Of a stretch of 64,000 nucleotides of DNA, positions 732-17,622 are shown piece after piece. The DNA comes from Syntrophothermus lipocalidus DSM 12680 (GTDB lineage: Bacteria > Bacillota > Syntrophomonadia > Syntrophomonadales > Syntrophothermaceae): assembly GCF_000092405.1 (NCBI RefSeq), contig NC_014220.1:1302001-1366000 (forward strand), given 5' to 3'. Positions within the stretch are counted from its first letter, which is position 1; each line of letters begins with the position of its first letter. The notes under the pieces are model-generated. The model saw only the letters and a program-made list of their open reading frames with translations, did not search any database and was not told the origin of the DNA. A program made the position numbers and the translations under genes.

Positions 732-1186
732 ATTAGGAAAGAAATTGGGAAATAAGCTGGCGGCGGAAACTTATACCAGACCCTCCACCAGTAAGGTGAA
801 GGGTTTTTTGTCTCGCCGCCTTTTCCCTAGTTTTCCCTGCCCAGGATCAGGTATGTGTGGTTCTGGCACCAACAGAGCCAACATATCTATTAGAAGCATG
901 AACCGAGAACGGAGGTAGGAGGTTGTGACGCGAATTCGACATTTGTTTCCAGGAGGCAACACCTGCAACGGGTTTCATTCCTTCTACGAGTTCATCGTGC
1001 CGAACCAGGCCCGGTTGAAACTGGTCTTGAAAGGCGGCCCGGGAGTTGGCAAGTCGACCCTGATGAAAAAACTAGGCGAAGAGTTTATCGACCTGGGTTA
1101 TCGTGTGGAGTTTCACTGGTGTTCATCTGACAACGAATCCCTGGACGCCATCGCACTGCCGGACTACGATATCGCGGTCGTCGACG
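732..1186 (+). repeat. 455-bp direct repeat, left copy
   Basis: Matches 16317-16771 at a constant offset of 15585. Reading both copies I found only two differences, both in the coding part (AAAAAA/AAGAAA and GAAGAG/GAGGAG). The repeat covers the last toxin codons, a terminator, an intergenic leader and the first 87 codons of the two-P-loop ATPase gene. The two copies bracket the 15-kb defence island. Confidence 0.93.
780..809 (+). terminator. Rho-independent terminator after the toxin scar
   Basis: A 10-bp stem (ACCCTCCACC / GGTGAAGGGT, one mismatch, 5-base loop) is followed by six T residues. It is inside the direct repeat and has an identical twin at 16365-16394. Confidence 0.75.
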
Positions 1187-1822: not shown

Positions 1823-2462
1823 CTAATCATTCATATCAACTCCTGCGTTCGGTAGGCGGTTTCTGTTTTCGAAATTCTCGTTATGCTCGATCGGCGTCTC
1901 GGTAAAGGCAATAAAGGAATCGTTGGGCAGGACGTCACGCATGTAACGGACAAAGCGTTCCATGCAGCATTGCTGGCTACGCTGGACCTCATGGTTAATC
2001 AGCATACGGCCAAAGGGGGAAACGCACGATGACTTCAGCCAGTCTACTATCCGCTCCGTGTAGCCACCAGAGGCGGCATATGCTATGCAGGCTTCATCCG
2101 CAAGGGCGGCAATGAGTTCGTTGCGGCGCAGAGCAGATTCCCGGGGTAACGCGCCTCGGCTGCAAACTGAACTAGGACACAAAGAGAGGGCGGCCAGCCC
2201 CGCTCTGCAGAGCCGCATTTCTCAACATACTCGCGCCCCGCGTCGGTGATCTCCCAGATGCCACGGGGAGAATCGGCGTTTTGAAGTTTGGCAAAAAGGT
2301 TCTTGCCGGTATTCGTTCCTCCTTACTCTCTGCATCCCTTCCCATGCGGTATTTGATGCGGGAAGTAATAATCAGACCCAGGTGCTCCACCGTCAGTCCA
2401 TCTAGCATGGTTATTTGATCATTATCGGTTAATACCCTTTCTTTAACGCAGACACGAGTCAC
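1823..2462 (-). pseudogene. Decayed minus-strand gene(s) with a winged-helix (Mrr-N-like) segment
   Basis: No single frame runs through this stretch, but protein-like text jumps between frames. The first part (2462-2320) overlaps the end of the OLD-family gene by 4 bases and reads 'LTVEHLGLIITSRIKYRM'. In a second frame (about 2310-2230) the segment GIWEITDAGREYVEK resembles the wing of the Mrr N-terminal winged-helix domain of restriction enzymes. In a third frame (1823-2130) there is a ~100-residue tail (ELIAALADEACIAYAASGG, SPFGRMLINHEVQR, VLPNDSFIAFTETPIE) that I do not recognise. I read this as one or two frameshifted genes. The Mrr link is suggestive only. Confidence 0.45.
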
Positions 2463-4069
2463 CTGGTAACAAAACTAACGATTTCTCCCATGAGCCTCTT
2501 AAGCTCCACACTGACTCCATTCCAATCTCCGGCAGCATCGAGGTGCACCATCATATGCTCAGGCTTGTCATGCTTTCGCGGCTCTTCGATTCCCGCCACG
2601 GCCTCAAAGCAGGGATCGCACTTGAACGTCAAAGCTGAACCATGTACTTTGACTGCTTGTTGAATGTCCCTTTCACGCTTCTCGTTGGTAGCTACGTCCT
2701 GCGGGTCAGTTTTGTCTGAATCCGTATCGTAAATGACCATCACAGGCTTTTCGATAGCTGCCATGATCCTTACAAGGATAGGAATAGCGGTCTTGCTTCC
2801 AGCTTCAATCACGGAACAATCATATAGGTCAAGCTCCAAAGTCGGTTCCATCATACCAGCGAGCCGTCGGATGGCTAAGTGCTCAGTTGGACCTTCGACG
2901 ATAATTACCTTTCGAGCAAAAAAGGCTTCGTTTTTTGGCTCGGCGAGGTGCTTAACTCGTGATTTCCAATCTCCTGTTACTTTAGATACATCTGGAGTCT
3001 TCACCTTTGTGCCGGCGTCCTTAGTTTTATAAACCAGTCTCACTGACTCAAAAGATTCCAGGTCAACGAAATCCTGGCTATGCGTCGTGTAAATTATCTG
3101 AAGGCCATTTTCGGAAAGTTCCTTGAGAAGACGAAACAGGTGTCGGCGTCCGTGCGGATGAAGATAGAGCTCAGGTTCCTCAAGGAGTAATATGGCGTTT
3201 TCTTTCTTCATCTCACGATAGACCTGAAGCAAGCTCATCACAAGAGCGGATTGAACACCTGAGCCCATGCGCTCAAAATCGACCAATTCCGGGGTATCGG
3301 GATCCTTGAACAAGATTGAAAAGTTCTTGTACAGATTTATAGGGTCGAGGCCATCCAACTGAAGCGACAGGTCCCGTAAGCCAGTGTGGCGCTTTAATTG
3401 TTCAGCAAGATTTTTCTCAAGTTCCTCGAACTCTTTCGTTCGCAGGAGTTCTCTGGCTTCTTCAAATTTATCCAGGAATGCTTTGAACCTTTTAGAATCC
3501 TTTTTTAGTTCTTTCGCGATATCAGCCAGCATGCGCCCGAAGATAGAACGCGAACTGCCGGACAAATGATAGCTAGCATTCCTGTCCACATCGACAATTA
3601 CCGCAGGTAGTTCGCCACGAATGTCGCTAGTAACTTGCGCAGGGCTCTGGTACGGCTTCGCCTGTGGATTCGGACGTTTCAGTATGTTGACGGGGTTGCC
3701 ATCCTTGTCTACACACACAAACGATGACTTCAGGTCACCAGGTTCTTTTTCCCCTGTTTTTCTCTTATATCTACCGATTTTGAACTGTATCCCCGAATAC
3801 TTCACGGGACTCCCAACATCTCCCCGCGTCTCACGCTCTTGATCGAACCAAACGGTGATCACCATGTTCCCGTCCGAATAAGCGTAAAAGTCCGCGAGCT
3901 CAATGGCTCTGGTCGTTGGCCACGTTTCTCCCAGCACTAAAGCAAGGGCACTGAGAATGTTGGACTTGCCCACGTTGTTAGGACCAATCAGGGCGCAAAG
4001 GTCCCCAACCTCGAATTCTAGCTCCTTGATGCTTCTGTAATTCTGGATTTTGACTCGTTCAAGCTTCAT
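2459..4069 (-). CDS. OLD-family ATPase/TOPRIM endonuclease
   Basis: A 536-residue protein with the OLD (overcoming lysogenization defect) layout: an ABC/SMC-like ATPase followed by a TOPRIM nuclease domain. The N-terminus LERVKIQNYRSIKELEFEV is the typical first strand. Walker A is GPNNVGKSN at about 29-37, and the Walker B/D-loop region reads AILLLEEPELYLHPHGRR. The TOPRIM domain starts at VIIVEGPTEHLAIRR, and the acidic YDTDSD follows. GAGGAG is 6 bases before ATG. OLD nucleases act on DNA and occur alone or with partners, for example a UvrD-like helicase in Gabija. No helicase neighbour is visible here; the neighbours are a HEPN gene and BREX genes, so a defence role is inferred from context. 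Confidence 0.85.
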   Translation of the reverse strand: MKLERVKIQNYRSIKELEFEVGDLCALIGPNNVGKSNILSALALVLGETWPTTRAIELADFYAYSDGNMVITVWFDQERETRGDVGSPVKYSGIQFKIGRYKRKTGEKEPGDLKSSFVCVDKDGNPVNILKRPNPQAKPYQSPAQVTSDIRGELPAVIVDVDRNASYHLSGSSRSIFGRMLADIAKELKKDSKRFKAFLDKFEEARELLRTKEFEELEKNLAEQLKRHTGLRDLSLQLDGLDPINLYKNFSILFKDPDTPELVDFERMGSGVQSALVMSLLQVYREMKKENAILLLEEPELYLHPHGRRHLFRLLKELSENGLQIIYTTHSQDFVDLESFESVRLVYKTKDAGTKVKTPDVSKVTGDWKSRVKHLAEPKNEAFFARKVIIVEGPTEHLAIRRLAGMMEPTLELDLYDCSVIEAGSKTAIPILVRIMAAIEKPVMVIYDTDSDKTDPQDVATNEKRERDIQQAVKVHGSALTFKCDPCFEAVAGIEEPRKHDKPEHMMVHLDAAGDWNGVSVELKRLMGEIVSFVTR

Positions 4070-4217
4070 AGCTCACTCCTCTTCTCCCGCATTCTTGTCC
4101 ATACGGTACTTGATGTTGCAGTTGACGATATATAACAACTATCTGTAAATGAGAAGCCGTAAGAAGAAAGACAGCAGATAATCACGATGATTATAACCTG
4201 GATGTCATTAACGATAG

Positions 4218-5288
4218 TTACTTACAAGGGCGCAGGCGCAACGTAGCTTCGTGCAGCCTATTCACGAAACGGTTGAAACAATCGACGGCCTTTTCCACCA
4301 GCTTTTGATCTGAGAGCTCAGGCTCCCCCGAGGCAACTGGGAGGTAGCTTTCCCACGGACTGAAATGCACCACCCTGTGGCGGTGATGAATGAGCCGTTG
4401 GAGCAGCGCCAGATCATTGGAGGAAACTCCTATCTCGCCAAACTTTATGCCGTAGGCCCTACGGTACGCCTTCTTCGCCTCCTCGTAATCCTGGAAGTTT
4501 ATACGTCGATCCCCGACTATCTTCTGAAGTACTGTCCGGTTCCTGGTGACTGCCTCCTCTTTCAAATCGTCTGCGGTGAAATGTGCCCTTTCCCGTTGGG
4601 AGTAAAAGGCAGTTATTAAGGCCTCAAGGTCGGGGTTAATACCTTCCGACTCCAGCTCCAGGAACCTTGTTTTGCAGTAGGCCTCAAAGCCTGTCACCAG
4701 CGTAACAATTATGAAGTTGCTCAAAATCACTTCGAAAGCGTAACCCTCTTCTGACTTTGCTTTTCTAAGCAACTCCACCGCTTGCACCGTGTTCCGCCAG
4801 GCCTCTATGGCTGTAGGCTGTAACACCAAATGCCCGCCCAGGCGCACGGAGTAGTGGCCCACCGCCAAGCTGGTATCGCCGATCCTGTAAACACGACCAT
4901 CATCGCCCACCCTGAGTTGTACCGGGGACGGTCGCCCCTCAGCCCGCACCAGCTTTCCCCCTGAAACCCTCGGACCTACATGCAACCTTGTTTCCGAAGG
5001 AGACCACACAAGCGCGATATATACCCGAAAACAGGGGGTAACAGACGTTAGATCTACCGTGGCCACGCGGGTTCCAGTGCCGGGAGCGGAATGATAAAAC
5101 AATAACTCTAACCGCTCGTTGCGCACCAATTGGAAAACGTGAGCTCCGGCAGCCACTTCCAAAATTACCTCCTGAGGCAGAGCTGTATCAAAAAGCGTTT
5201 CAGAAACGTAATCGAACTCAACCGTCCCTTCCGGGCGACACATTTCCTCCTGAATCTTTTTCAGCACTTCTGGCGGAATGTTTCGCAC
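4218..5288 (-). CDS. HEPN-domain protein with an N-terminal beta-rich domain (putative defence RNase)
   Basis: A 356-residue protein of no named family that I can assign. Roughly residues 20-150 are rich in beta-strand patterns (VILEVAAGAHVFQLVRNERLE, VGDDGRVYRIGDTSLAVGHY) reminiscent of concanavalin/LamG-like sandwiches. From about residue 190 the chain is helical (NFIIVTLVTGFEAYCKTRF) and ends with RHRVVH at about 303-308, which fits the R-x4-H motif of HEPN ribonucleases. GTG 5288 is preceded by GGAAGGTGAG. It lies 125 bases downstream of brxA on the same strand and upstream of the OLD gene. HEPN proteins with a conserved R-x4-H are often abortive-infection RNases; that role here is inferred. 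Confidence 0.7.
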   Translation of the reverse strand: MRNIPPEVLKKIQEEMCRPEGTVEFDYVSETLFDTALPQEVILEVAAGAHVFQLVRNERLELLFYHSAPGTGTRVATVDLTSVTPCFRVYIALVWSPSETRLHVGPRVSGGKLVRAEGRPSPVQLRVGDDGRVYRIGDTSLAVGHYSVRLGGHLVLQPTAIEAWRNTVQAVELLRKAKSEEGYAFEVILSNFIIVTLVTGFEAYCKTRFLELESEGINPDLEALITAFYSQRERAHFTADDLKEEAVTRNRTVLQKIVGDRRINFQDYEEAKKAYRRAYGIKFGEIGVSSNDLALLQRLIHHRHRVVHFSPWESYLPVASGEPELSDQKLVEKAVDCFNRFVNRLHEATLRLRPCK

Positions 5289-5413: not shown

Positions 5414-6136
5414 TTACCGGTGTACGATTGTAACCATGTCTAAATCCAAACCCTGACGCTGTATTTCAAACCGTTTAGATTGCCGTATATTCGCCACCGA
5501 AATATCCAGGTGAAACGGAAAAGCTGTGGGCAGCTGGGGTAATTGTTGCAGGATCACCGCTTGGGTTGCTTCCGAACACAACAGGGCTTCTAAAAACCAT
5601 AACTGAACACTAGCGCTGGCCGGGCCTTTTTTGGCGGTGGGGATATAAACGCCTTTTAGGGCCGTATCCTGGAGAACGCCCCAGTCTACCATCGAACGCA
5701 CCACTCGTTGGCTCGCCCGGCGAACAGTTGATCTTTCTCCCCACCGTTCTGCCAGCCGGCGGTAAATCTGCTCTAGAGAAACTTCATTCTGCAATGTCAA
5801 CAGACGACCAATAATATCCGCTATATCGCGAAAAAATGGATAGGCTAGAAGTGTCATGCCCCAGTGCAACCAGAGTCTTGTATCGGGGTCGTCCTCGGTT
5901 AAAATTCTTAAAGCCCGCTCCTGTAATGACCGGTGCTTCTGCGGTAACCTGACCCAAATCCGAGTTAATACGGTTATGGTCTTCCTGCGTGCCTCTCTAC
6001 TTCGACATTCTGACTGCAAGAAATCATCAAGGTATTTCCGTACCTCAGCAATGTCTGTTTCCGTTGCGGCTTTCCAGGCGGCGGCATCCAGCCATTCCAG
6101 CTTAACTCTCCGGTCAAAACCGATATTTAAGGCCAT
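5414..6136 (-). CDS. brxA: BREX protein BrxA (DUF1819)
   Basis: A 240-residue helical protein matching the DUF1819/BrxA family. The opening (ALNIGFDRRVKLEWLDAAA), the conserved central HWGMTLLAYPFFRDI and the wHTH-like C-terminal half ending in RVVRSMVDWGVL are recognisable. BrxA is a DNA-binding accessory protein of BREX phage-defence systems. I place the start at ATG 6136, 2 bases after the pglZ stop, with GGGAGGAG 8 bases upstream; an in-frame TTG at 6154 would overlap pglZ. As last gene of the brxF-brxC-pglX-pglZ-brxA run its position matches BREX type 3. Confidence 0.88.
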   Translation of the reverse strand: MALNIGFDRRVKLEWLDAAAWKAATETDIAEVRKYLDDFLQSECRSREARRKTITVLTRIWVRLPQKHRSLQERALRILTEDDPDTRLWLHWGMTLLAYPFFRDIADIIGRLLTLQNEVSLEQIYRRLAERWGERSTVRRASQRVVRSMVDWGVLQDTALKGVYIPTAKKGPASASVQLWFLEALLCSEATQAVILQQLPQLPTAFPFHLDISVANIRQSKRFEIQRQGLDLDMVTIVHR

Positions 6137-6138
6137 GA

Positions 6139-8088
6139 TCAATGCTCCTCCCAAATCCTGACAAAAGGAACGACAACCTCTTCCAAAGATATTCCGCCGT
6201 GGCTTACGATTTCTTCACCATTTGAGACAAAGGCTGACCGGCCCCTGGCCAGCAGCACGGAGTAACCCTGGGGTAAACCAAAACCAGGCCAACAGATGGC
6301 ATTTTCTATTTCTTCCATCATCTGCTGTCGAAAAACGTCGTAATGATAAATTCTGGCCCGCTCACCACGGGTTTCAGCCAGGACCCCGTCCGGCAAACGG
6401 CCTATTCCCCTGGCCGTAATATTACCGTGATCCGAAGTCAGATAGACGGCAAATTTATTTTTAAGGAGATAATCAATTAGCTGTATCAGGTAACCCTGTT
6501 CGGCCCACAACCTGACTTGCTGGTGCATACCTGCTGTCCCCAGCTCCATGCCGTGCATGATTCTGTCCACTTTATCTATAACCAGACCCACGATCTCGAA
6601 CTGTGATCCTAAAAATTCTCCAATTTCACTTACCGACTCGTCACCCAAACCTTTATGGTAGTAGGTATTTCCTCTCCTGACCCCGCTGTCTTCCCAAAAT
6701 TTGTGCCAGTGCTGTTCTTCTTTCGAGGTTGTCGTCAGAGTGTCCTTGAAATACAGGGGCGGCTCTGCAGCGAACAGCGCCTGCCGTGAGATAGAAGTTA
6801 AGGTCGGTACCCAGGCAAAGACCTGGTTTTCCTCGATTCGCCGCGCCGGGTACCTGTCTCTCAGGAAATTGCGGATAACCAGCCATTGATCCAATGCCAG
6901 GCCGTCAGTGACGATCAGGGCGATCTTTTTTGCTCCCTCTTTGAGGCGCAGATGGGCGAGATAGCGGGGGATGTGGTGCACCATCACCGGTCTGGAAGTA
7001 TAGGGGAGGTTGGCCAGGGAGCCGTAGCGCACGAGCATCCAGCTCGCAAAGCGCTCTTCCAATTGATCGTGCAATTCCTCAATTTTTAGTTTGCTTTCAG
7101 CTTCTATGTCCTGATTCAGTTCCCGGCTAAGCACAAGCAATTCCGCCCACAGAACGGCCAGGCGCTGCCAGTCCCTGTGGGACGCTGTTTCTCCAGGCAA
7201 ATCTTGTCGTATCTTCTCTAATAGCCACTTAATCCTGCGCCTTTCGTTAGCCTGCTTATCTAAGAGCACACCTGCCAGGACCCACGCGGGCATACCTTCC
7301 GTACTCGCAACCGGAACAGGCCTTAAACTGCCTTCCAAGAACAGGTTGTCGATGTACACCCGTATGTCATAATGCTCAAAGGGGACCTCGGTGAAATTCT
7401 CTCCTTTGGCCGTGCTCTCCAGGAAGCGACGCCATTTTTCTTGCAGGAAAGCAAAAAAGGCTTCCCTCCTGGGAATGATGTCTTCCAGCGGCCAATTCTT
7501 AAAAACGCTCTTTTCTCTTAAACAATGGATAAGGTGTTCGTCCAAAACCGAGGGCACAGTCACAAAATTGCAATGCCGCGATAACAATATCTTCATCAGT
7601 TCGACCGGTGAATTGATAAGGTCGGGTATTATGCCAAAAACATGTTTTAAGATAAAATCCTTGGTCGCCTTCTCCCCCAGCGTAGGGCCATTGTAATTCT
7701 GGTATGCACTGTAAAGCTTATCCAGGTCGGACTTCTCCACAGCCGCAACTACCGGATAGCTGAGTTTGGGAAAGATATCGGCTAAGCTGAAGAAAAGCTT
7801 ATGGCCCCTCTGCCATACATCGAAGGGGAGGCGGCGCAGTTCCTGCGGGCCGCCTTTTACCACCACTATTAAATGTGCCGCTTCGCCCCGATCCCATCTT
7901 GAGCGATAGTTTACTTCATACACATAACGAAAGGTGATGGGATCACTAAAAACAAGGACATCAAACCCCATTTCCCCTAGGGCTGAGAGAATATCTTCTT
8001 CCAGGAGCAAGCCGTCGGGGTCAGCCGCTAAAGTAAGTCTTGATACGCCTGGCTGTAAGTTTTTAAGAATGTGGTCGCGCCAGTTCAT
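6139..8088 (-). CDS. pglZ: BREX protein PglZ (alkaline-phosphatase superfamily)
   Basis: A 649-residue PglZ protein. PglZ is the signature component of all BREX/Pgl systems, a predicted metal-dependent hydrolase of the alkaline phosphatase fold; its substrate is unknown. The N-terminal ~330 residues are the family's variable part. The PglZ core begins near KKIALIVTDGLALDQW, with the first metal-binding aspartate, and carries YLTSDHGNITARG and the late VSHGGISLEEVVVPF motif. The start ATG 8088 lies 54 bases after the pglX stop, with AAGGTG upstream. In the standard type 3 order a helicase gene (brxHII) would sit between pglX and pglZ, and there is no room for it here. Confidence 0.9.
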   Translation of the reverse strand: MNWRDHILKNLQPGVSRLTLAADPDGLLLEEDILSALGEMGFDVLVFSDPITFRYVYEVNYRSRWDRGEAAHLIVVVKGGPQELRRLPFDVWQRGHKLFFSLADIFPKLSYPVVAAVEKSDLDKLYSAYQNYNGPTLGEKATKDFILKHVFGIIPDLINSPVELMKILLSRHCNFVTVPSVLDEHLIHCLREKSVFKNWPLEDIIPRREAFFAFLQEKWRRFLESTAKGENFTEVPFEHYDIRVYIDNLFLEGSLRPVPVASTEGMPAWVLAGVLLDKQANERRRIKWLLEKIRQDLPGETASHRDWQRLAVLWAELLVLSRELNQDIEAESKLKIEELHDQLEERFASWMLVRYGSLANLPYTSRPVMVHHIPRYLAHLRLKEGAKKIALIVTDGLALDQWLVIRNFLRDRYPARRIEENQVFAWVPTLTSISRQALFAAEPPLYFKDTLTTTSKEEQHWHKFWEDSGVRRGNTYYHKGLGDESVSEIGEFLGSQFEIVGLVIDKVDRIMHGMELGTAGMHQQVRLWAEQGYLIQLIDYLLKNKFAVYLTSDHGNITARGIGRLPDGVLAETRGERARIYHYDVFRQQMMEEIENAICWPGFGLPQGYSVLLARGRSAFVSNGEEIVSHGGISLEEVVVPFVRIWEEH

Positions 8089-8142
8089 AAAACTACACCT
8101 TCTACGTATGTTATCGAGGATAATTCGTTACCGGCGGATAAA

Positions 8143-10782
8143 TCATTCATCCAGCCGCATCAGGGCGTTGTCGTAGTACATCAGGAGAGTGGTATCTTCC
8201 TGGAGGACGGTATCCGGTATGCGCCTGGCCACCTCTACGATGGTCTTGTAGTCTTTAGCAGCCCAGCAGGCCTTGAATCCGGCCCGTAAGGCTTCGGTGC
8301 GGAATACTTTCAGCCTGCCCCTGCCTTCCTTGTACTCCTCGAACTCTTTGAGGAGGGCCTTCTCGCGCATCTTCTCCAGGTCGGACTGCCTGCCGGGGTC
8401 GGGGACGTACCAGCGGCCGTAATCGTCTTTAAGGAAGTTCTGCTCCAGCAGTTCGGAGAGCTCCGGCAGCTTTTCGTGCCTTGCCTTGTGCAATTCCCGC
8501 AGGAATTTGGGGTGGATTTCCTGGTATGTCTGCGGCTTCTTTTCGAGTTCGCTGCGCAGCCACTGGATAGCCGACTTTTCATCAATCACGAACAGCGACA
8601 GTTGTTCAAACTCCCTAACTGATAGCCGTTTTTTATCATACTCGTTTACCTGGTCCGGCAGAAAATACATTCCGTCCCGCTCGGGGAAGCGCTGCTTCAA
8701 GCCGGCGTAAAACTCCGCCGCTCCCATAGGCACGGCAACTCCCCGCTGGACGTGGAAGGCCACCATCCGGTCGTAGAGAAGGAAATTCTGCCGCTCGGCA
8801 ATGACCTCCGCTTTGCCGTTTTTCTCCACGAAGACCGGCAGCTGTTTGAGGTGGGTGCGGACAAAATCCCAGACTCCTTCTTCGGTTCCAGCCTCCAGGT
8901 GAAATCGCTTTTCCAGGCCGCCGTTGGGCTTGTAGGCGGAGATGACCAGGTCCTGCTTCACCGCGGTGGTCGAAGTAACCTGCTTGAAGGTCCCCTGCTT
9001 TTTGTCCAGGGTCCGCACGTCGGCAATAACGAACCCGGCCCGCATAATGGCCTCCTGGATGGCGTTCCAGATCCGGTTCTGCGAGTTGTGAAACACCACC
9101 GTCATCCACCGGCCGGGCTTTAAGACCCGGTAGTACTCGGCAAAGCACTTCTCCATGAGCTCCTGGTATTCCCGCGGGCCTTTGCCCTGGGCTTTGTTTT
9201 CTACGGCTTCGGGCTTATTGTTGGTAAAGACCCTGAGCCAGGCTTCCCAGAGGAAATTGAGCTCAGAGTACATCAGGTTGCCGCCAAAGGGAGGGTCGGT
9301 GAAAATGTAGTCTATATAATTTTTGGGGATACTGGTATTGGTGGCCGAAGTTGTTTCCACCAGAACATATCCTTTTTCTGGGTATCGAACTTTGCAAAAG
9401 TCTAACAGCTTATATTTCAAAAGCTTCAACGGGCTATTTTCCGTCCATAATGAAGGAATGTAAAGGGTACCACTTACTGTCCCCATTTTCCGGTCCAGGG
9501 TAAACTTGTACATTTTTGTCGTTCTTATCAGGGAAGAAGTTAGCCAAATTAGGAGTAGTTTTAACGGCAAGGCTTTGGCCATATTTAAAACGAGCGCCAA
9601 AACCCACAAATTCCGCCTCGTGTAAAAATGGTGAACATGAGTAATCCCATGTGACACTTTAGGCTGTTCGGTATTGTAGCCCTCCGGCATGCGGTCGGTA
9701 GGATACCAGTACGGTATCTCGCTCTCCTCAATCTTCCGGATCAGGTCCAGGTCGTACTCGTCGGGCTTTTTCTCATACCTCTTATTCCCCACCGAATAGT
9801 TAATGAGCACCGGCACCTGGCGGGCACGGGTGACGGTCTGCCCGATGTCCCGGTCATACACCCTTTCCGTGGCCCTCTCCAGGGTCCGCTTGGTGAGGTC
9901 CGCCCCGCAGTGGGGGCAGGGAAACTCGTCCCTGACTTTACCTTCTTCTTTGTCTACCGCCACTTCCCAGAAGACAAGCTCCGCTGAACAATGGGGGCAG
10001 ATAAACACGTCGGACCAGACGGTGTAGTTGATTTTACCCATGATGGGGCTGCCCTTGGCGCCTTTCTGCACCTTTCCGCCCACCACGTGCTGCGTTTCGT
10101 ACATCCAGCCGCATTCTCTTTCCACTTCCTCCAGAATCCGCCGGGCTTCGCGTTCGAAGGCCTGAACATCAACCGGCGTGTTGTAGTTGTAGGCAATGAA
10201 AGTGGCTGCCGGCGAAAGGTCGATTAATATAGCCTTGCGTGCTCCAAGCTTAGAAAAGGGCCGGCCTTTTTCGTCCAGGATGGTCCCGTCATCCAGAACG
10301 CGGTAGCCCAGGGATTCAACGGCCTTGCGGTCCCCACATAAGCTTGCCGCCACGCCGGTCATGCCCGTGCCGCAGAAACCGTCAAAGACGATGTCTCCCG
10401 GCTCGGTGTAGTGGAGGATATAGCGCATGATGGCCCTGTGGGGCACCTTGGTGTGATAGGAATGGGCGTTGTAAATGGGATCGTTCTTACCCTCCGATAC
10501 ATCCGCCGCAAACGGTTGCCTGCGGTAATCGTCGTTATCCGGGTCGTACGGCTTGCCATGCTCTTTAATGAAATCCTCGATGAACGGGTTCGGGCAGGCA
10601 GTGTAATAGGGCGGGTCGGAAAGGTTGATGATGTCCTCATCTTTAGCAATGGGAAACCCCTCGATCTGCCTGACCCGGTCCAGGCGTTCTTTGGTGAGCC
10701 CGAAACGCCGGCGCTTTTGCTTCTGCTGTCCTTCTTCGTTTCCTTCCGGAATGTCCATAAAAAGCTGCTCTTCCTGGGCCAT
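8143..10782 (-). CDS. pglX: BREX type 3 adenine-specific DNA methyltransferase PglX
   Basis: An 879-residue methyltransferase with a first catalytic-type motif DPPY at 56-59, a SAM-binding motif I FDGFCGTGMT at about 133-142, and a second DPPF motif near residue 510 (YIFTDPPFGGNLMYSELNF). A zinc ribbon with two CPHC pairs lies at about 260-300. This arrangement matches the BREX type 3 (PglXI-type) enzymes that methylate adenine in a non-palindromic site to mark host DNA. The start ATG 10782 lies 14 bases after the brxC stop, behind GAGGGG. The C-terminal ~230 residues are probably target recognition or protein contacts. No break in the frame is seen. Confidence 0.88.
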   Translation of the reverse strand: MAQEEQLFMDIPEGNEEGQQKQKRRRFGLTKERLDRVRQIEGFPIAKDEDIINLSDPPYYTACPNPFIEDFIKEHGKPYDPDNDDYRRQPFAADVSEGKNDPIYNAHSYHTKVPHRAIMRYILHYTEPGDIVFDGFCGTGMTGVAASLCGDRKAVESLGYRVLDDGTILDEKGRPFSKLGARKAILIDLSPAATFIAYNYNTPVDVQAFEREARRILEEVERECGWMYETQHVVGGKVQKGAKGSPIMGKINYTVWSDVFICPHCSAELVFWEVAVDKEEGKVRDEFPCPHCGADLTKRTLERATERVYDRDIGQTVTRARQVPVLINYSVGNKRYEKKPDEYDLDLIRKIEESEIPYWYPTDRMPEGYNTEQPKVSHGITHVHHFYTRRNLWVLALVLNMAKALPLKLLLIWLTSSLIRTTKMYKFTLDRKMGTVSGTLYIPSLWTENSPLKLLKYKLLDFCKVRYPEKGYVLVETTSATNTSIPKNYIDYIFTDPPFGGNLMYSELNFLWEAWLRVFTNNKPEAVENKAQGKGPREYQELMEKCFAEYYRVLKPGRWMTVVFHNSQNRIWNAIQEAIMRAGFVIADVRTLDKKQGTFKQVTSTTAVKQDLVISAYKPNGGLEKRFHLEAGTEEGVWDFVRTHLKQLPVFVEKNGKAEVIAERQNFLLYDRMVAFHVQRGVAVPMGAAEFYAGLKQRFPERDGMYFLPDQVNEYDKKRLSVREFEQLSLFVIDEKSAIQWLRSELEKKPQTYQEIHPKFLRELHKARHEKLPELSELLEQNFLKDDYGRWYVPDPGRQSDLEKMREKALLKEFEEYKEGRGRLKVFRTEALRAGFKACWAAKDYKTIVEVARRIPDTVLQEDTTLLMYYDNALMRLDE

Positions 10783-10796
10783 AACTCTTCACCCCT

Positions 10797-13700
10797 CTAT
10801 TCCAGGACGATCCTTACCTTCTGCGGGTCCCTGCCCCGCGTGAGAGACCGGATATAATCCTCAAAGCGCTGCTGAAACTCAGATACTGTGCAGGGCGTTC
10901 CGCCTTGAGTCAAAGCTTTCTTTAAGTCGGCTGCGGTAACCGAAACCTTTTCCATGCCGGAGAGCACTTCCTGAACGGCCTTTACAAATGATGCGTCCAC
11001 CGTGTAGGGCAGCTGCTGTTCTTTGACCACCTGATCCAGTGCTTTTCGCTGCTCCGGCTTCAAAAGATAGATGTTTTCCTTTACCGTCGGGTCTTCCAGG
11101 TTGGCGATCAATGTCCTTTCCCAATCCTCGCACAGTCTTTCCAGGTCTTCCTCCAACCGCCTGAGCGCCGCGTCAGCCGGCAGCTTAATTTGCTCCTGTG
11201 CCGGCCGGTAGCTGCAGTGAGGACAGACGGGCGTTTTTTCCAAATCCTCTCTGGTGAGGCTGAAACACGTTTTCAGCTCCGCCAGACGGTTTTGGAAGTC
11301 CGTAAGCTGGGCCCGGGGCATCAACTCTATACCAGCCAGCCTGTTGAGTTTGCTCAACCGCTCATCTTTGAGAAGTTCGGATTTTTTCTGATCCCCGGTC
11401 GCATTTAACCGGGCCCTGGCATGGGCCTGCAGGTAAGTCTCAATGTACGAGTTCTTGAGTTCCACCAGCACCTGCACGAGTTCCCGTCGCAGGCTGGGGT
11501 CGGATGCTTCGTCCAGGCCGGATAGTTTTGCCTTGAGCTCTTCACGCCGCTCCCGGGCTTTTACCGTCCAACCGGCATCCGCAGGAAGCACGGCTTCGGC
11601 GGTGCTGAGGTAGGAGAGCAGAGGCTGGACTTCACTTGCCAGGCCGGCCAGCTCTTCAACCCTCTTCAGGGTGGCAAGGTACGTCTTCTGCTTATTTATA
11701 TCCCGCTCGGAGTAGCGGAAGTTTTTCAACTTCCCGGGAGTGTTAAAAACCCGGAGTAATTCCAGAAATCCTTTGAAACTTGCCAGTTTATCCCTTAAAC
11801 CGGCTTTATTTTTCTCATCAAACAAAGAAATACCCCACAAAGATAACTCTTGCTGTATCACCTGCTGGGCTTGCACGGTGCGCTCCAGGAGCTGATCCAC
11901 CGCTTTCTGAAGCTGCCTTACCCCTTCTTCACGAGTAGATTGATTGACGATCAGCCCGGGCGGCAGCCCCAAAAATTCAAACAGAGCCTGTAGGGGACCG
12001 AGGGGCAGGTCCTTGGGACGCTCGATATGCTTGAACTTAATAAGTTCCTCCAGGGGAATTTTGCCCAGCTCCTCCAGGTTGGAAGCATCTATCTTCTTCC
12101 CCGGAATGCTTAAAGTAACATCGCCGCTGTAGATCAAGCTCGCCAGGATGACGACCACCCACTCCGGCTCCAATCTGAAACGGGTTTCGTACTCCACACC
12201 GCGAAACTCGGCTATTATTTCGCCCCGGTTGAGGACCTGACCCGGGCCCTTTTTGTCCAGCTGTCCCAGGATGTGTTTGGCATAACGGGAATTTTGCGGC
12301 CTTAACTTATCTCCGTCCAGAAGTTCCAGGGCATCGAGGACGGCTGCCCCCTGCCTGGTCCTGATGCTGCCGAGGATCCACTTTATCGCCTCCTGGGCAG
12401 CCTGAGGCCGGTTCTTTACGGTAACCAGGATGGAGAAGGCCGGGTATTCGGGCGCCAGCTCCCGGAAGTAGGGCGCCAGGCAAAGGGAACCCACCATGTT
12501 CACCAGATCCCGAACCGAGGCATGAGAAGTGGCACTGTGCTTAATCCACTCGACGAATTTTTTAGTTGCTCCCCGGTAGGTAACTTCATAAGCCGTGGTG
12601 ATGTTGTTCCGCAGCCATTCGACTATCTTTTTCAGCTGGTCGTTGGCCTTATTTTCATAGACCTGCCGCGTTCCTTTGGAAGCCGTGCTGGCCATCTCGC
12701 AGGCGCCGGCGTAGAACTTAAGGGCACGGTCAAAGTTCTCGTCACGCTGCACCAGCCGGAAAAACACCTCATCGGGCTTTTTCTCATCCTCAAAAAGCGG
12801 CGGGTCAAAGGGCTGCAGAAAATAGAGGTAAAAGTCCCTGGGCGGGTGGGCGGTAGAACGCTCGTTGGGAGCCCCGAAGAATAAATACCCTAACCGGGTG
12901 GCCTTTTTCTCGCGCCACTCAATTTCGTGCTCCCAAATCTGGAAATTGGGAACATACGTGGCTTCGGGGCACTCCATGGCCCGGGCGAGGGCCTTAAAAT
13001 AGTAGCGGTCCAACTGGTTGGGGGTCAAGACTTCCGCTTTCTGCTCAATTAGAGAATCAAAGTCGATGTCTTTTTTCAGGTCAAGGTAGTACTGGCCGTT
13101 GTCCTGGTTGAAAGAAATAAACTGGCCGCTCACCGTCCTTAAGATCTCGCGCAAGATTGATTCTATAATGGTTTTAAGAAACTCGGCATCCTCTTCCGGC
13201 AAGGGCAAGTAAAGGCAGAGGTCGTCGCGGAGTTCTTCAGCCGTGACCCCTATGGGAGCGTAAATATCTCCTGTTGTCAGCCGGTGAACGCTCAAAGCGT
13301 GAATGATGCGGAGGGCCACAGGCTTATACTGCGGCCTTGTAAAGGCCTGCTGGACACGGTATTCCAGTACCTGGCTCTTCTCAATCACTTCGCGAATGTC
13401 CGGGTCGCTGCGGAAAGAAGGATTGTCCTTTAAGTTTTGCCAGTAAGAGTCATAAGCGATGAGGCCGGGGTCATTTTCCGGAACTTCTTTGTCCAGGAGT
13501 TTTTTCATGGCAAAACTTATGGTTTTCAGCACCTCGCGCTTTTCGGCTACATAGACCCGCTCAAAAGTTTCCAGGTATGCCGGATGCACGGGGAAAAGAA
13601 CGACGAATTCGTCCATGCGCTCGGCCAGGGTGCCGTATAGTTTGGTGAAACGCTGCAGGTGCTCCCTTATGAGAGCCTTCTGCCTGTCATCCTTGCGCAG

Positions 13701-14477
13701 TAACCTCTGGGCAACTACGTAGGCTATGTCCTCACGGACAATTCGTATCTGCTCAAAACGGTCTTTGACCCGGCGCAGGGTTTCAGCCACAAACTGAAAG
13801 CGCGGGCTGTCAAAAATGGCTTCCTGCACCCCGGCCACGAAGCGAAACCGGGTGAGCCGGCAAACCTCCCCGATTTCCCGCAAGAAGTTTAAGTCGAGGA
13901 TTAGCTCCTGATCTTTGCGCGTGCGCAGGTAGTCCAGGAGTTCATCGACAACCAGCAAGAGCCCGTGATCCGGGTAAACTTCCTGGAAAGCGTTCATCAT
14001 CTCAATAAAAGGGTCTTTGTTGTTGGTAATTTTATCGGCTTCAGGAAAACGGTATTTCACCCCGAGATTAGCCAGCTGTTCTTCCAGCTCGGCACAAATG
14101 ATGTTCCTGAGAGACATCGTGGTGGAACCGATCTCGGTCCTGACAACCTTGAACTTGCCAGCGATAGCCTGCGCTTTTGCGGCCACAGCGGGATGCCGTA
14201 TCTCCGTGACCAGGTCTGGATATTCGGCTATAGCAGATAGTACCGACATTAAATGCGATTTGCCGGTACCATAGTTACCGACGATCAAAAGCCCCTTATT
14301 ATCCTGGGGATGGCCGTATTGAAGCTGCGGAAAGACAACTTCCGTAATCTGCTCGGCCATCCGTTCCGAGATCACGTAGCTTTTTACCAACTCCCCGGCC
14401 CTGCTTTTGGCATCAGCTTCCCGTAACTGCACTATAGTTTCGACCGGTTCAAAATGTATGAGGTCAGCGTACTTCAC
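10797..14477 (-). CDS. brxC: BREX protein BrxC/PglY (DUF6079-type ATPase)
   Basis: A 1226-residue ATPase, the size expected of BrxC. Walker A is [10 protein letters not shown] at 67-76, and Walker B is [14 protein letters not shown] near 180. A long helical middle and C-terminal region follows, containing a CPHCSY zinc-type motif near residue 1100. BrxC is essential in BREX systems studied so far and resembles AAA+/ORC-type ATPases; its mechanism is not settled. The start GTG 14477 follows AAGGTGGGG. It lies 30 bases downstream of brxF and 14 bases upstream of pglX, so these genes form one operon. Confidence 0.88.
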
Positions 14478-14507: not shown

Positions 14508-14966
14508 TCACTCCAGAGGACAAATAAGGGCATCGACTTCATAATATTTTCGGTACTCCGGGTGATCTGGCTCCGCATAGACCAGCGCACCGCCCTCGAA
14601 CTTGCCGTTCCATGCGGCAACGATAGTTCGATTGCGGCTGACTTGTTGAAGCAAACGTAAAGGGTCCTGTTGAAGTACAGGATCAAAAAGTATTTCTGTG
14701 TTATCGAGAAGGACCGTATTCTTTCCCGTTTCGCCTATGATCGTCTCCACTATTCTCGGCAGGCGTAACGCTCGCATTCTTGCGGGGTATTCCAGGAGTT
14801 TCTGACTCAGCGCGAGGTTCAGATTAATATAGGGATAACCCTCATCTCTGGCTGTTTGAACAAGGATTTCGGTTTTTCCGGTTGCAGCTGACCCAACCAG
14901 TAATACCAGTCGATAATACCTCGACCGGGCTGCTGCTATTTGTTTTTTGAGCTCATCTGTTTTCAT
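14508..14966 (-). CDS. brxF: BREX type 3 P-loop protein BrxF
   Basis: A 152-residue P-loop protein, the marker of BREX type 3 that precedes brxC. Walker A is GSAATGKT at 25-32, and a Walker B-like IIGETGKNTVLLDNTEILF follows. I use ATG 14966 as start because the family is about 150 residues and begins shortly before the P-loop. A longer in-frame start at 15044 would overlap the upstream AbrB-like gene and add 26 residues that do not look conserved. The ribosome site is weak (GGGA). It is the second gene of the operon after the AbrB-like regulator. Confidence 0.82.
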   Translation of the reverse strand: MKTDELKKQIAAARSRYYRLVLLVGSAATGKTEILVQTARDEGYPYINLNLALSQKLLEYPARMRALRLPRIVETIIGETGKNTVLLDNTEILFDPVLQQDPLRLLQQVSRNRTIVAAWNGKFEGGALVYAEPDHPEYRKYYEVDALICPLE

Positions 14967-15015
14967 GGCAATCCCAGCACCTGCCTGTATATCCCCTCGA
15001 TAACCACTAAAAGCA

Positions 15016-15219
15016 TCAGGTCTCAGCAGCTTCCCCAAACCCATCTTTCTTGCTGGCGGGAATAATTATCGCCTTCTCCAGGACGACCTTCCCATCGCCT
15101 TCGATTCTGAGAAGAACCCGGTCGCCCTCTTCAATTTCAAGAGCAGTCCGTATTTCTTTCGGCAACGTCATTTGACCTTTCGGTCCCATTTGGGGTGTAA
15201 AAATTTTCTTTTGGGCCAA
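15016..15219 (-). CDS. AbrB/MazE-type (SpoVT-AbrB) DNA-binding protein, first gene of the BREX operon
   Basis: A 67-residue swapped-hairpin AbrB protein; the core TPQMGPKGQMTLPKEIRTAL-EIEEGDRVLLRIE is typical of AbrB/MazE antitoxins and transition-state regulators. I place the start at TTG 15219, with AGGTGG 5 bases upstream; a frame back to 15273 adds residues outside the family. It is the most upstream gene of the minus-strand run and is followed 49 bases later by brxF. No toxin partner is adjacent, so a role as operon repressor is more likely than antitoxin. A perfect palindrome at 15288-15303 upstream is its candidate operator. Confidence 0.8.
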   Translation of the reverse strand: MAQKKIFTPQMGPKGQMTLPKEIRTALEIEEGDRVLLRIEGDGKVVLEKAIIIPASKKDGFGEAAET

Positions 15220-15412: not shown

Positions 15413-15468
15413 ACCTGTGAGTTTCTAGTGGTGGAAATCATGGTACAATAGTAACCAGGAGAGTGGTC
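15413..15468 (+). repeat. Right copy of the ~56-bp flank repeat
   Basis: Matches 1-56 with about five or six differences, including the AACCAGGAG ribosome-site region, but is followed by no DUF433 gene. It lies 115 bases upstream of the UPF0175 antitoxin start. Confidence 0.8.
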
Positions 15469-15874: not shown

Positions 15875-16340
15875 TTCGACACCCCTCATTGCTTTAGCCC
15901 GGATTAAGCAAGTAGAACTCCTACACCACCTATTTGGACGAATCATGATTCCTCAATGTGTATACAATGAAGTGGTACTACCGGGAACTGAGCTTCCCGG
16001 CGTGAAGGAAATAGGAGAAGCTACCTGGATCGAGACCCTCCAAGTACAAAATGCTCTGGCGGTCTCCTTGCTTAAAACCGACCTTGATGGGGGAGAAGCG
16101 GAAGCCATCGTTTTAGCCAAGGAAGTTAATGCGGATTATCTTTTAGTTGATGAGAAAAAAGCCCGACGTATCGCCAGAAATTCGGGCTTAAGGATTATGG
16201 GTACCCTAGGCATTTTGGTACTTGGTGTGAAAAGGGAGTTGTTGCCTGCTATTGACCCAATCCTCGACAGCCTGGAACAGAATGGGTTCCGCTTTAGCGA
16301 AAAGGTAAGAACAAAGATTAGGAAAGAAATTGGGAAATAA
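15858..16340 (+). CDS. DUF3368 family PIN-domain toxin
   Basis: A 160-residue PIN-domain protein, predicted Mg-dependent ribonuclease toxin. Family landmarks are the opening VVSNSTPLIALARIK, the central acidic LDGGEAEAIVLAKE and the third acidic site YLLVDEKKARRIA. The start ATG 15858 lies inside the antitoxin gene, giving coupled translation. The last codons belong to the 455-bp repeat, and a terminator follows at 16365. The left-hand twin of this gene is deleted down to its first three and last few codons. Confidence 0.87.
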   Translation: MKVVSNSTPLIALARIKQVELLHHLFGRIMIPQCVYNEVVLPGTELPGVKEIGEATWIETLQVQNALAVSLLKTDLDGGEAEAIVLAKEVNADYLLVDEKKARRIARNSGLRIMGTLGILVLGVKRELLPAIDPILDSLEQNGFRFSEKVRTKIRKEIGK

Positions 16341-16771
16341 GCTGGCGGCGGAAACTTATACCAGACCCTCCACCAGTAAGGTGAAGGGTTTTTTGTCTCG
16401 CCGCCTTTTCCCTAGTTTTCCCTGCCCAGGATCAGGTATGTGTGGTTCTGGCACCAACAGAGCCAACATATCTATTAGAAGCATGAACCGAGAACGGAGG
16501 TAGGAGGTTGTGACGCGAATTCGACATTTGTTTCCAGGAGGCAACACCTGCAACGGGTTTCATTCCTTCTACGAGTTCATCGTGCCGAACCAGGCCCGGT
16601 TGAAACTGGTCTTGAAAGGCGGCCCGGGAGTTGGCAAGTCGACCCTGATGAAGAAACTAGGCGAGGAGTTTATCGACCTGGGTTATCGTGTGGAGTTTCA
16701 CTGGTGTTCATCTGACAACGAATCCCTGGACGCCATCGCACTGCCGGACTACGATATCGCGGTCGTCGACG
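16317..16771 (+). repeat. 455-bp direct repeat, right copy
   Basis: Twin of 732-1186. It begins inside the last codons of the DUF3368 toxin and ends in codon 87 of the intact two-P-loop ATPase gene. Confidence 0.93.
16365..16394 (+). terminator. Rho-independent terminator of the toxin-antitoxin module
   Basis: A 10-bp stem with one mismatch and a six-T tail, 24 bases after the toxin stop; identical to 780-809. Confidence 0.75.
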
Positions 16772-17622
16772 GTACCGCACCACATGTGGTGGATCCCCGC
16801 TTCCCCGGGGCCGTCGACGAGATCGTGAACCTCGGTGACTTCTGGGATAAGGAACACCTGCAGGGAAACCGCGAAGAAATAATCGCCGCCACCTCTTTAA
16901 ACGGCCGGTATTTCGCCCTGGCGTACAACCGTCTGCGCGAAGCCAAGGTTATCTACGACGAATGGGCTTCTTACTATGAAGAAGCGCTCGACAAGCGGGC
17001 TTGGCAGGAACTCGCTAACCATTTGATCAAAAAATTGGTTAACGCAGCAGAAAAACCGTCAAAGCCTTTGGCCCGCCGGCCCTGCCGCCATCTTTTTGCT
17101 GCAGCCATAACCCCGAACGGGGTGGTCAACAACATCACCTCACTGGTGAATACCGATTGTCGGACCTACCTCTTGAAGGGAAGCCCGGGCACAGGGACAG
17201 ATAAACTGCTGGCAGTCTTGAAGACCGTCGGAGAGTGCACCGGCCTGGCTCACGAATGCTACCATCATCCGTTTGTTCCAGACCGTATTCAAGCCCTGAT
17301 TTTCCCTGAAATAAGGATGGCGGTGGTCGACGAAACGCCGTGGCTGACTCGAGCCGAGCTTTTCTGGCCTGACCACCGGGATATCAGGACTATGCACCTG
17401 GATGAAATCGTGGAGCTTCCCCTTTTATCCCCTTTTCAGGCTGATATTGCAGATTGCCAGGAACGGTTCGCTTCCTGCCTGGCTACAGCCGTGAACCACC
17501 TAAAGCAGGCTAAAACCGTTCACGACCAGCTTGAAAGCTATTACACCCCGGCCATGAACATCTATGAACTGGAAGCCAAAAGAGAAGAGCTGAAGCAGAT
17601 GATCCTCCGCTACTACCTGTAA
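16510..17622 (+). CDS. Two-P-loop ATPase of the PRK06851 type, function unknown
   Basis: A 370-residue protein made of two homologous P-loop halves. The first half has a full Walker A, GGPGVGKST, and DYDIAVVD as Walker B. The second, from about residue 180, repeats the pattern (YLLKGSPGTGTDKLL, IRMAVVDETP), but the invariant lysine of Walker A is replaced (GSPGTGTD), so it probably does not hydrolyse ATP. Both halves share the introductory phrase on a filled-in substrate ('NGFHSFYEFI', 'NGVVNNITSL'). The family is widespread in Clostridia without a known role. GTG 16510 follows GGAGGTAGGAGG. A 5' fragment lies at 925-1186. The 8-bp inverted repeat CCTGTAAA/TTTACAGG over the convergent stops could end both this gene and the next. 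Confidence 0.75.
   Translation: MTRIRHLFPGGNTCNGFHSFYEFIVPNQARLKLVLKGGPGVGKSTLMKKLGEEFIDLGYRVEFHWCSSDNESLDAIALPDYDIAVVDGTAPHVVDPRFPGAVDEIVNLGDFWDKEHLQGNREEIIAATSLNGRYFALAYNRLREAKVIYDEWASYYEEALDKRAWQELANHLIKKLVNAAEKPSKPLARRPCRHLFAAAITPNGVVNNITSLVNTDCRTYLLKGSPGTGTDKLLAVLKTVGECTGLAHECYHHPFVPDRIQALIFPEIRMAVVDETPWLTRAELFWPDHRDIRTMHLDEIVELPLLSPFQADIADCQERFASCLATAVNHLKQAKTVHDQLESYYTPAMNIYELEAKREELKQMILRYYL

Follow-up and report, generated by a model that had tools for sequence, protein, structure and literature searches.

HEPN genes accompanied by OLD ATPases were reported in Pgl operons in 2013 (in the text of PMC3710099), and backup effectors of BREX listed in the text of Rakesh and Krishnan (2026, PMC12839542) include both HEPN RNases and OLD-TOPRIM nucleases, so the concept of HEPN and OLD proteins as a backup to BREX is already known. 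The systems in these two texts occupy the same place beside the BREX core as the locus analysed here and belong to the same nuclease classes, but a HEPN family with a laminin LG-like domain is described in neither, supplementary gene lists aside. A literature search of open-access main texts returned no report of such a family.

The nearest profile is that of the RiboL-PSP-HEPN family (PF18735; Anantharaman 2013, PMC3710099), which is distantly related to AbiF/AbiD. The C-terminal half of the HEPN protein studied here matches nearly the whole of this profile and shares its Rx4H motif, whereas it carries an LG-like N-terminal domain, lacks the endoRNase L-PSP fusion and scores below the gathering cut-off. 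The ApeA-NTD1 and MAE_18760-NTD1 HEPN proteins (PMC3710099) likewise join a β-rich N-terminal domain to a C-terminal HEPN domain; our protein has no match to ApeA or MAE_18760 in Pfam or PADLOC. Tha, the tail-activated HEPN protein of Staphylococcus aureus phages (PMC11087260), is also the product of a single gene, with a C-terminal HEPN domain, an Rx4H motif and a size of ~300–360 aa in common with the protein here. Homology to Tha was rejected, as hhalign against 80alpha Tha-1 gave a probability of 0.2%, with no detectable sequence relation.

The window analysed here is a 64,000-nucleotide stretch of Syntrophothermus lipocalidus DSM 12680. ORF calls place a HEPN gene and an OLD gene directly downstream of brxA on the same, minus strand, as a sequence-only reading had located them, and the BREX context given by that reading holds as well, with the type 3 components brxF, brxC, pglXI, pglZ-3 and brxA all present. 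The features are as follows.

732..1186, plus strand: 455-bp direct repeat, left copy, carrying the 5′ portion of a PRK06851-type gene
2459..4069, minus strand: OLD-family nuclease, 536 aa, ABC ATPase and TOPRIM in one chain
4218..5288, minus strand: LG/ConA-like β-sandwich plus HEPN protein, as predicted, 356 aa, GTG start
4236..4811, minus strand: predicted C-terminal helical HEPN domain of this protein, residues 160-351 (Pfam, AlphaFold 2, Foldseek, motif)
4971..5228, minus strand: predicted N-terminal seven-stranded β-sandwich of this protein, residues 21-106 (AlphaFold 2, Foldseek)
5414..6154, minus strand: brxA (PADLOC BrxA, E 8.7e-105)
6139..8088, minus strand: pglZ of BREX type 3 (NCBIfam BREX_PglZ_3, 887.7 bits)
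8143..10782, minus strand: pglXI methylase (PADLOC PglXI, 1484 bits)
10797..14477, minus strand: brxC, DUF6079 (PADLOC BrxC, 2067 bits)
14508..15044, minus strand: brxF (NCBIfam BREX_3_BrxF)
16317..16771, plus strand: 455-bp direct repeat, right copy, with the PRK06851-type gene intact (16510-17622)

The two 455-bp copies differ by 2 mismatches and enclose the BREX–HEPN–OLD island of ~15.1 kb. The 5′ part of the PRK06851-type ATPase gene lies in the repeat and the gene is intact at the right end only; the repeat looks like the scar of an island insertion or duplication. A short PRK06851-like ORF (L070:1546-1896) is also found ~3.8 kb downstream of brxA in the BREX-3 locus of genome G247, and the gene may therefore be a recurrent insertion site of BREX-3 islands. 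A 53-bp repeat (92%; 3-55 and 15415-15467) stands ahead of two toxin–antitoxin-like gene pairs that flank the island, one DUF433/DUF5615 and the other an antitoxin-like ORF with a DUF3368 PIN gene.

Genes of the BREX core overlap (by 16 bp for brxA and pglZ) or have short gaps only, whereas intergenic gaps of 125 and 148 bp surround the HEPN gene. On direct reading, a purine-rich, ribosome-binding-like stretch precedes the start of both the HEPN and the OLD gene. A promoter and terminator scan gave promoter scores no higher than those of shuffles. The helicase gene brxHII is absent between pglXI and pglZ (8088-8143) and has no match in the whole genome. It is present in 15 of 19 readable BREX-3 loci and, according to the text of PMC12839542, in 77% of published type 3 BREX loci; BREX-3 relatives with ~89–95% identical BrxA retain it.

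The β-rich N-terminal and helical C-terminal halves described from sequence were borne out by AlphaFold 2. A full-length fold search was convincing for the N-terminal domain only, and the C-terminal domain was therefore modelled and searched separately. The model of the C-terminal half is all-helical (pTM 0.81 for residues 150-356 alone), and its Foldseek matches in the PDB include 1ylm (YutE; probability 0.93), 7bxo_G (0.80), which we take to be the HepT-type toxin of a toxin–antitoxin entry, and the archaeal HEPN protein 1wol (0.54). Among the matches listed, all those with a probability >0.5 are HEPN proteins, as the earlier assignment of this half would have it, with weak E-values of 0.05–1.2. 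The Pfam profile HEPN_RiboL-PSP aligns to residues 188-348 with most of its length covered (E 2.7e-4); at 21.3 bits, under the curated cut-off of 28.4 bits, it marks the nearest family and not membership. Matches to it occur in four of eight family members (best E 1.6e-4), all below the gathering score. We regard the HEPN fold of the C-terminal half as established by prediction.

The catalytic-type motif R303-H-R-V-V-H308 lies exactly where the sequence-only reading had put it, and in a thin alignment of eight homologues from three phyla every sequence keeps the R and both H residues of RHxxxH; the domain would act as an RNase. Compared with a relative in each case, dN/dS is 0.23 for the HEPN gene and 0.17 for the OLD gene, indicating purifying selection, and the two are thus not chance ORFs. 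Searching the PDB by sequence with the HEPN protein found nothing, and a fold search of BFVD gave one high-probability match of two-domain size, an uncharacterised 311-aa phage protein.

Residues 21-106 are predicted as seven strands with a pLDDT of ~82–92. Their best Foldseek matches in the PDB, with probabilities of 1.00 and 0.98, are to LG domains of laminin; pentraxin, CBM40, GH43 accessory domains and galectins follow, and all these structures share the ConA-like fold. No Pfam model covers this LG-like domain, and its combination with HEPN is absent from the family libraries searched. Stand-alone relatives of 115–145 aa occur in four genomes (L014-L017), next to lon in three and near aminoacyl-tRNA synthetase genes in one, and apparently constitute a small housekeeping-linked family.

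The neighbouring protein is a class 1-type OLD. Its ATPase/TOPRIM identity, proposed at the outset, is confirmed by PADLOC (Old, E 3.8e-62), Pfam (OLD-like_TOPRIM and AAA_15), a match to PDB 6p74 (E 3.4e-60) and intact motifs (Walker A GPNNVGKS, Walker B LLLEEPE, THS, and TOPRIM EGPTE and DTD). The 6p74 protein, presumably from Thermus scotoductus, is likewise a class 1 OLD nuclease of ~500 residues with ATPase and TOPRIM in one chain, but is only a distant relative (~30% identity by eye). Gabija (GajA plus UvrD-like GajB) was rejected on the absence of an adjacent helicase and on the OLD model outscoring GajA; PARIS, in which the AriA ATPase is paired with a separate AriB TOPRIM, was rejected on the single chain found here. 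The nearest relatives of the OLD protein (31%, G302 and G329) lie within type I restriction–modification operons, recognised from HsdM-, HsdS- and HsdR-like sequences on their flanks, and a search of plasmids gave no match to the OLD protein.

The HEPN family is spread over three phyla, alone or in varied contexts. Full-length proteins were found in 5 of 398 genomes of the phylum and in 1 of 63 of the class; among Pseudomonadota and Bacteroidota (398 and 296 genomes searched) they were confined to the two starting genomes, and plasmid, phage and viral-contig collections gave no match. The context of BREX-3 plus OLD is common to the window and G035, whose HEPN protein is 95% identical. In Pelotomaculum (L018, 94%) the gene accompanies BREX-3, with a broken DUF3644-like gene inserted ahead of it. 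The 48% identical copy of G341 (L012) follows brxA of an independent BREX-3, with Mrr in place of OLD; the pglXI methylase of that locus reads as two ORFs (L012:6991-9572), so this BREX may be damaged, and brxA, the HEPN gene and Mrr remain open. A frameshifted copy in Desulfovirgula lies downstream of a DISARM-like DrmD/DrmMI locus. Clostridia, Chryseobacterium and Nitrotoga have solo copies, the last of these downstream of a thiC-like gene, and for those of Nitrotoga, Chryseobacterium, G384 and G227 no defence genes were recognised in the kilobases covered, one of the four contigs extending only 1.4 kb upstream.

HEPN adjoins OLD only in the window and the near-identical G035 (95–97% identical). 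Because these two share one recent island, with ~88–97% DNA identity in shared blocks, the adjacency counts once. At E-values up to 1e-20, the OLD protein had no match in any of the seven other HEPN-bearing genomes, in a search that does recover the 31% relatives. The shared blocks break at two points, between brxA and HEPN, where L018 has an insertion of 1.9 kb, and between HEPN and OLD, where L010 has ~0.3 kb extra, so each gene travels together with the region upstream of it. HEPN and OLD are most likely separate add-ons, not a two-part system.

BREX-3 PglZ scored above its cut-off in 45 of 398 genomes, and the HEPN gene is present in 3 of these about 45, always immediately after brxA. With the window and G035 counted once, two of four lineages in the phylum have BREX-3 (binomial estimate ~0.07); genome-level co-occurrence of HEPN and BREX-3 is not strong, but the physical link is, since two distant lineages have the gene at the same slot. 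Elsewhere, brxA is followed by DSR1-like SIR2 plus PIN, HEPN-MNT (on the opposite strand), NsnAB-like, McrBC-like (AAA plus DUF2357/PD-(D/E)XK) or Snf2 helicase genes, and in several other BREX-3 genomes by nothing recognisable. Since different defence genes follow brxA in other genomes, we read the post-brxA position of type 3 BREX as a swap slot for cargo defence genes. The region just upstream of brxHII forms a second cargo position in two other BREX-3 loci, holding an OLD-like ATPase gene in one (G322, L100:2-1723) and a gene that is Mrr-like by its N-terminal sequence in the other (G223, L088:3025-3930).

The HEPN protein is probably a self-contained anti-phage RNase, an interchangeable cargo of the post-brxA slot of BREX-3, with OLD as a second, independent cargo. 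This reading starts from the predicted folds, the conserved motif, purifying selection, the mobile and mixed contexts and the lack of a fixed pairing. Independence is argued by family members from three phyla that stand alone or have other neighbours, by L018, where HEPN is retained behind BREX-3 although the genome has no match to OLD, and by the placement of OLD relatives inside type I restriction–modification operons. In the proposed mechanism, the lectin-fold N-terminal domain would keep HEPN inactive until an infection cue is bound; the C-terminal domain would dimerise and cut RNA through R303/H308, translation would stop and the infection would be aborted. Carried after brxA, the gene would step in when BREX is blocked. 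For the OLD protein, the probable role is that of a DNA nuclease, and its ATPase may sense damage or anti-restriction.

We consider it rather unlikely that the HEPN protein works as an accessory of BREX, responding to a BREX-3 signal such as stalled BrxC/PglX or a lost helicase function and causing cell death solely under engagement or inhibition of BREX. The gene does follow brxA on the same strand at two loci, with 48% identity between their HEPN proteins, and with PglZ-3 in just 45 of 398 genomes this two-lineage adjacency is not random; HEPN and OLD proteins are also proposed as BREX backup effectors in the text of PMC12839542. However, most homologue lineages have no adjoining BREX, and the wide gaps on either side of the gene, set against the compact core, argue against a tight operon. 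The accessory role suggested from sequence survives as that of a modular cargo, which also follows brxA in L012, and fares poorly as a closer tie given only 3 of about 45 BREX-3 genomes and four homologues that stand alone.

It is unlikely that the protein is an RNase of housekeeping or stress response, or a toxin unrelated to phage, caught in the island by chance. Four homologues lack defence genes in the kilobases covered, which leaves room for a toxin or stress function outside defence, and both the solo copies and the housekeeping-linked relatives of the N-terminal domain fit it, but the family is patchy across phyla, being found in a single genome of its own class, and recurs after brxA and near DISARM-like genes.

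A direct-sensor reading strikes us as improbable: the lectin-fold domain would sense part of the phage, such as a protein of the tail or capsid or a phage molecule modified with sugar, and switch HEPN on, and HEPN and OLD together would offset the lost BrxHII as the RNA- and DNA-cleaving arms of a helicase-less BREX. The N-terminal domain need not be a phage sensor, as its stand-alone relatives adjoin housekeeping genes such as lon. G341 is also without brxHII, as are other members of its family (G201, G298 and G176), so the two loci establish no link between HEPN and helicase loss.

A single two-gene defence system of HEPN and OLD, an ATPase sensor with two nucleases as the sequence-only reading had entertained, is very improbable, for although the genes are adjacent, on the same strand and both under purifying selection in two genomes, the pairing failed the co-occurrence test, both adjacent cases being one recent island with extra DNA between the genes in L010, and OLD having no match in the seven other HEPN genomes and being related to proteins of type I restriction–modification loci.

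The outcome is a small single-gene candidate defence protein and not a two-gene pairing. It represents a putative HEPN effector family with an unusual lectin-like N-terminal domain, for which the libraries searched contain no dedicated model, and its locus points to the post-brxA site of type 3 BREX as a place where backup defence genes are exchanged.
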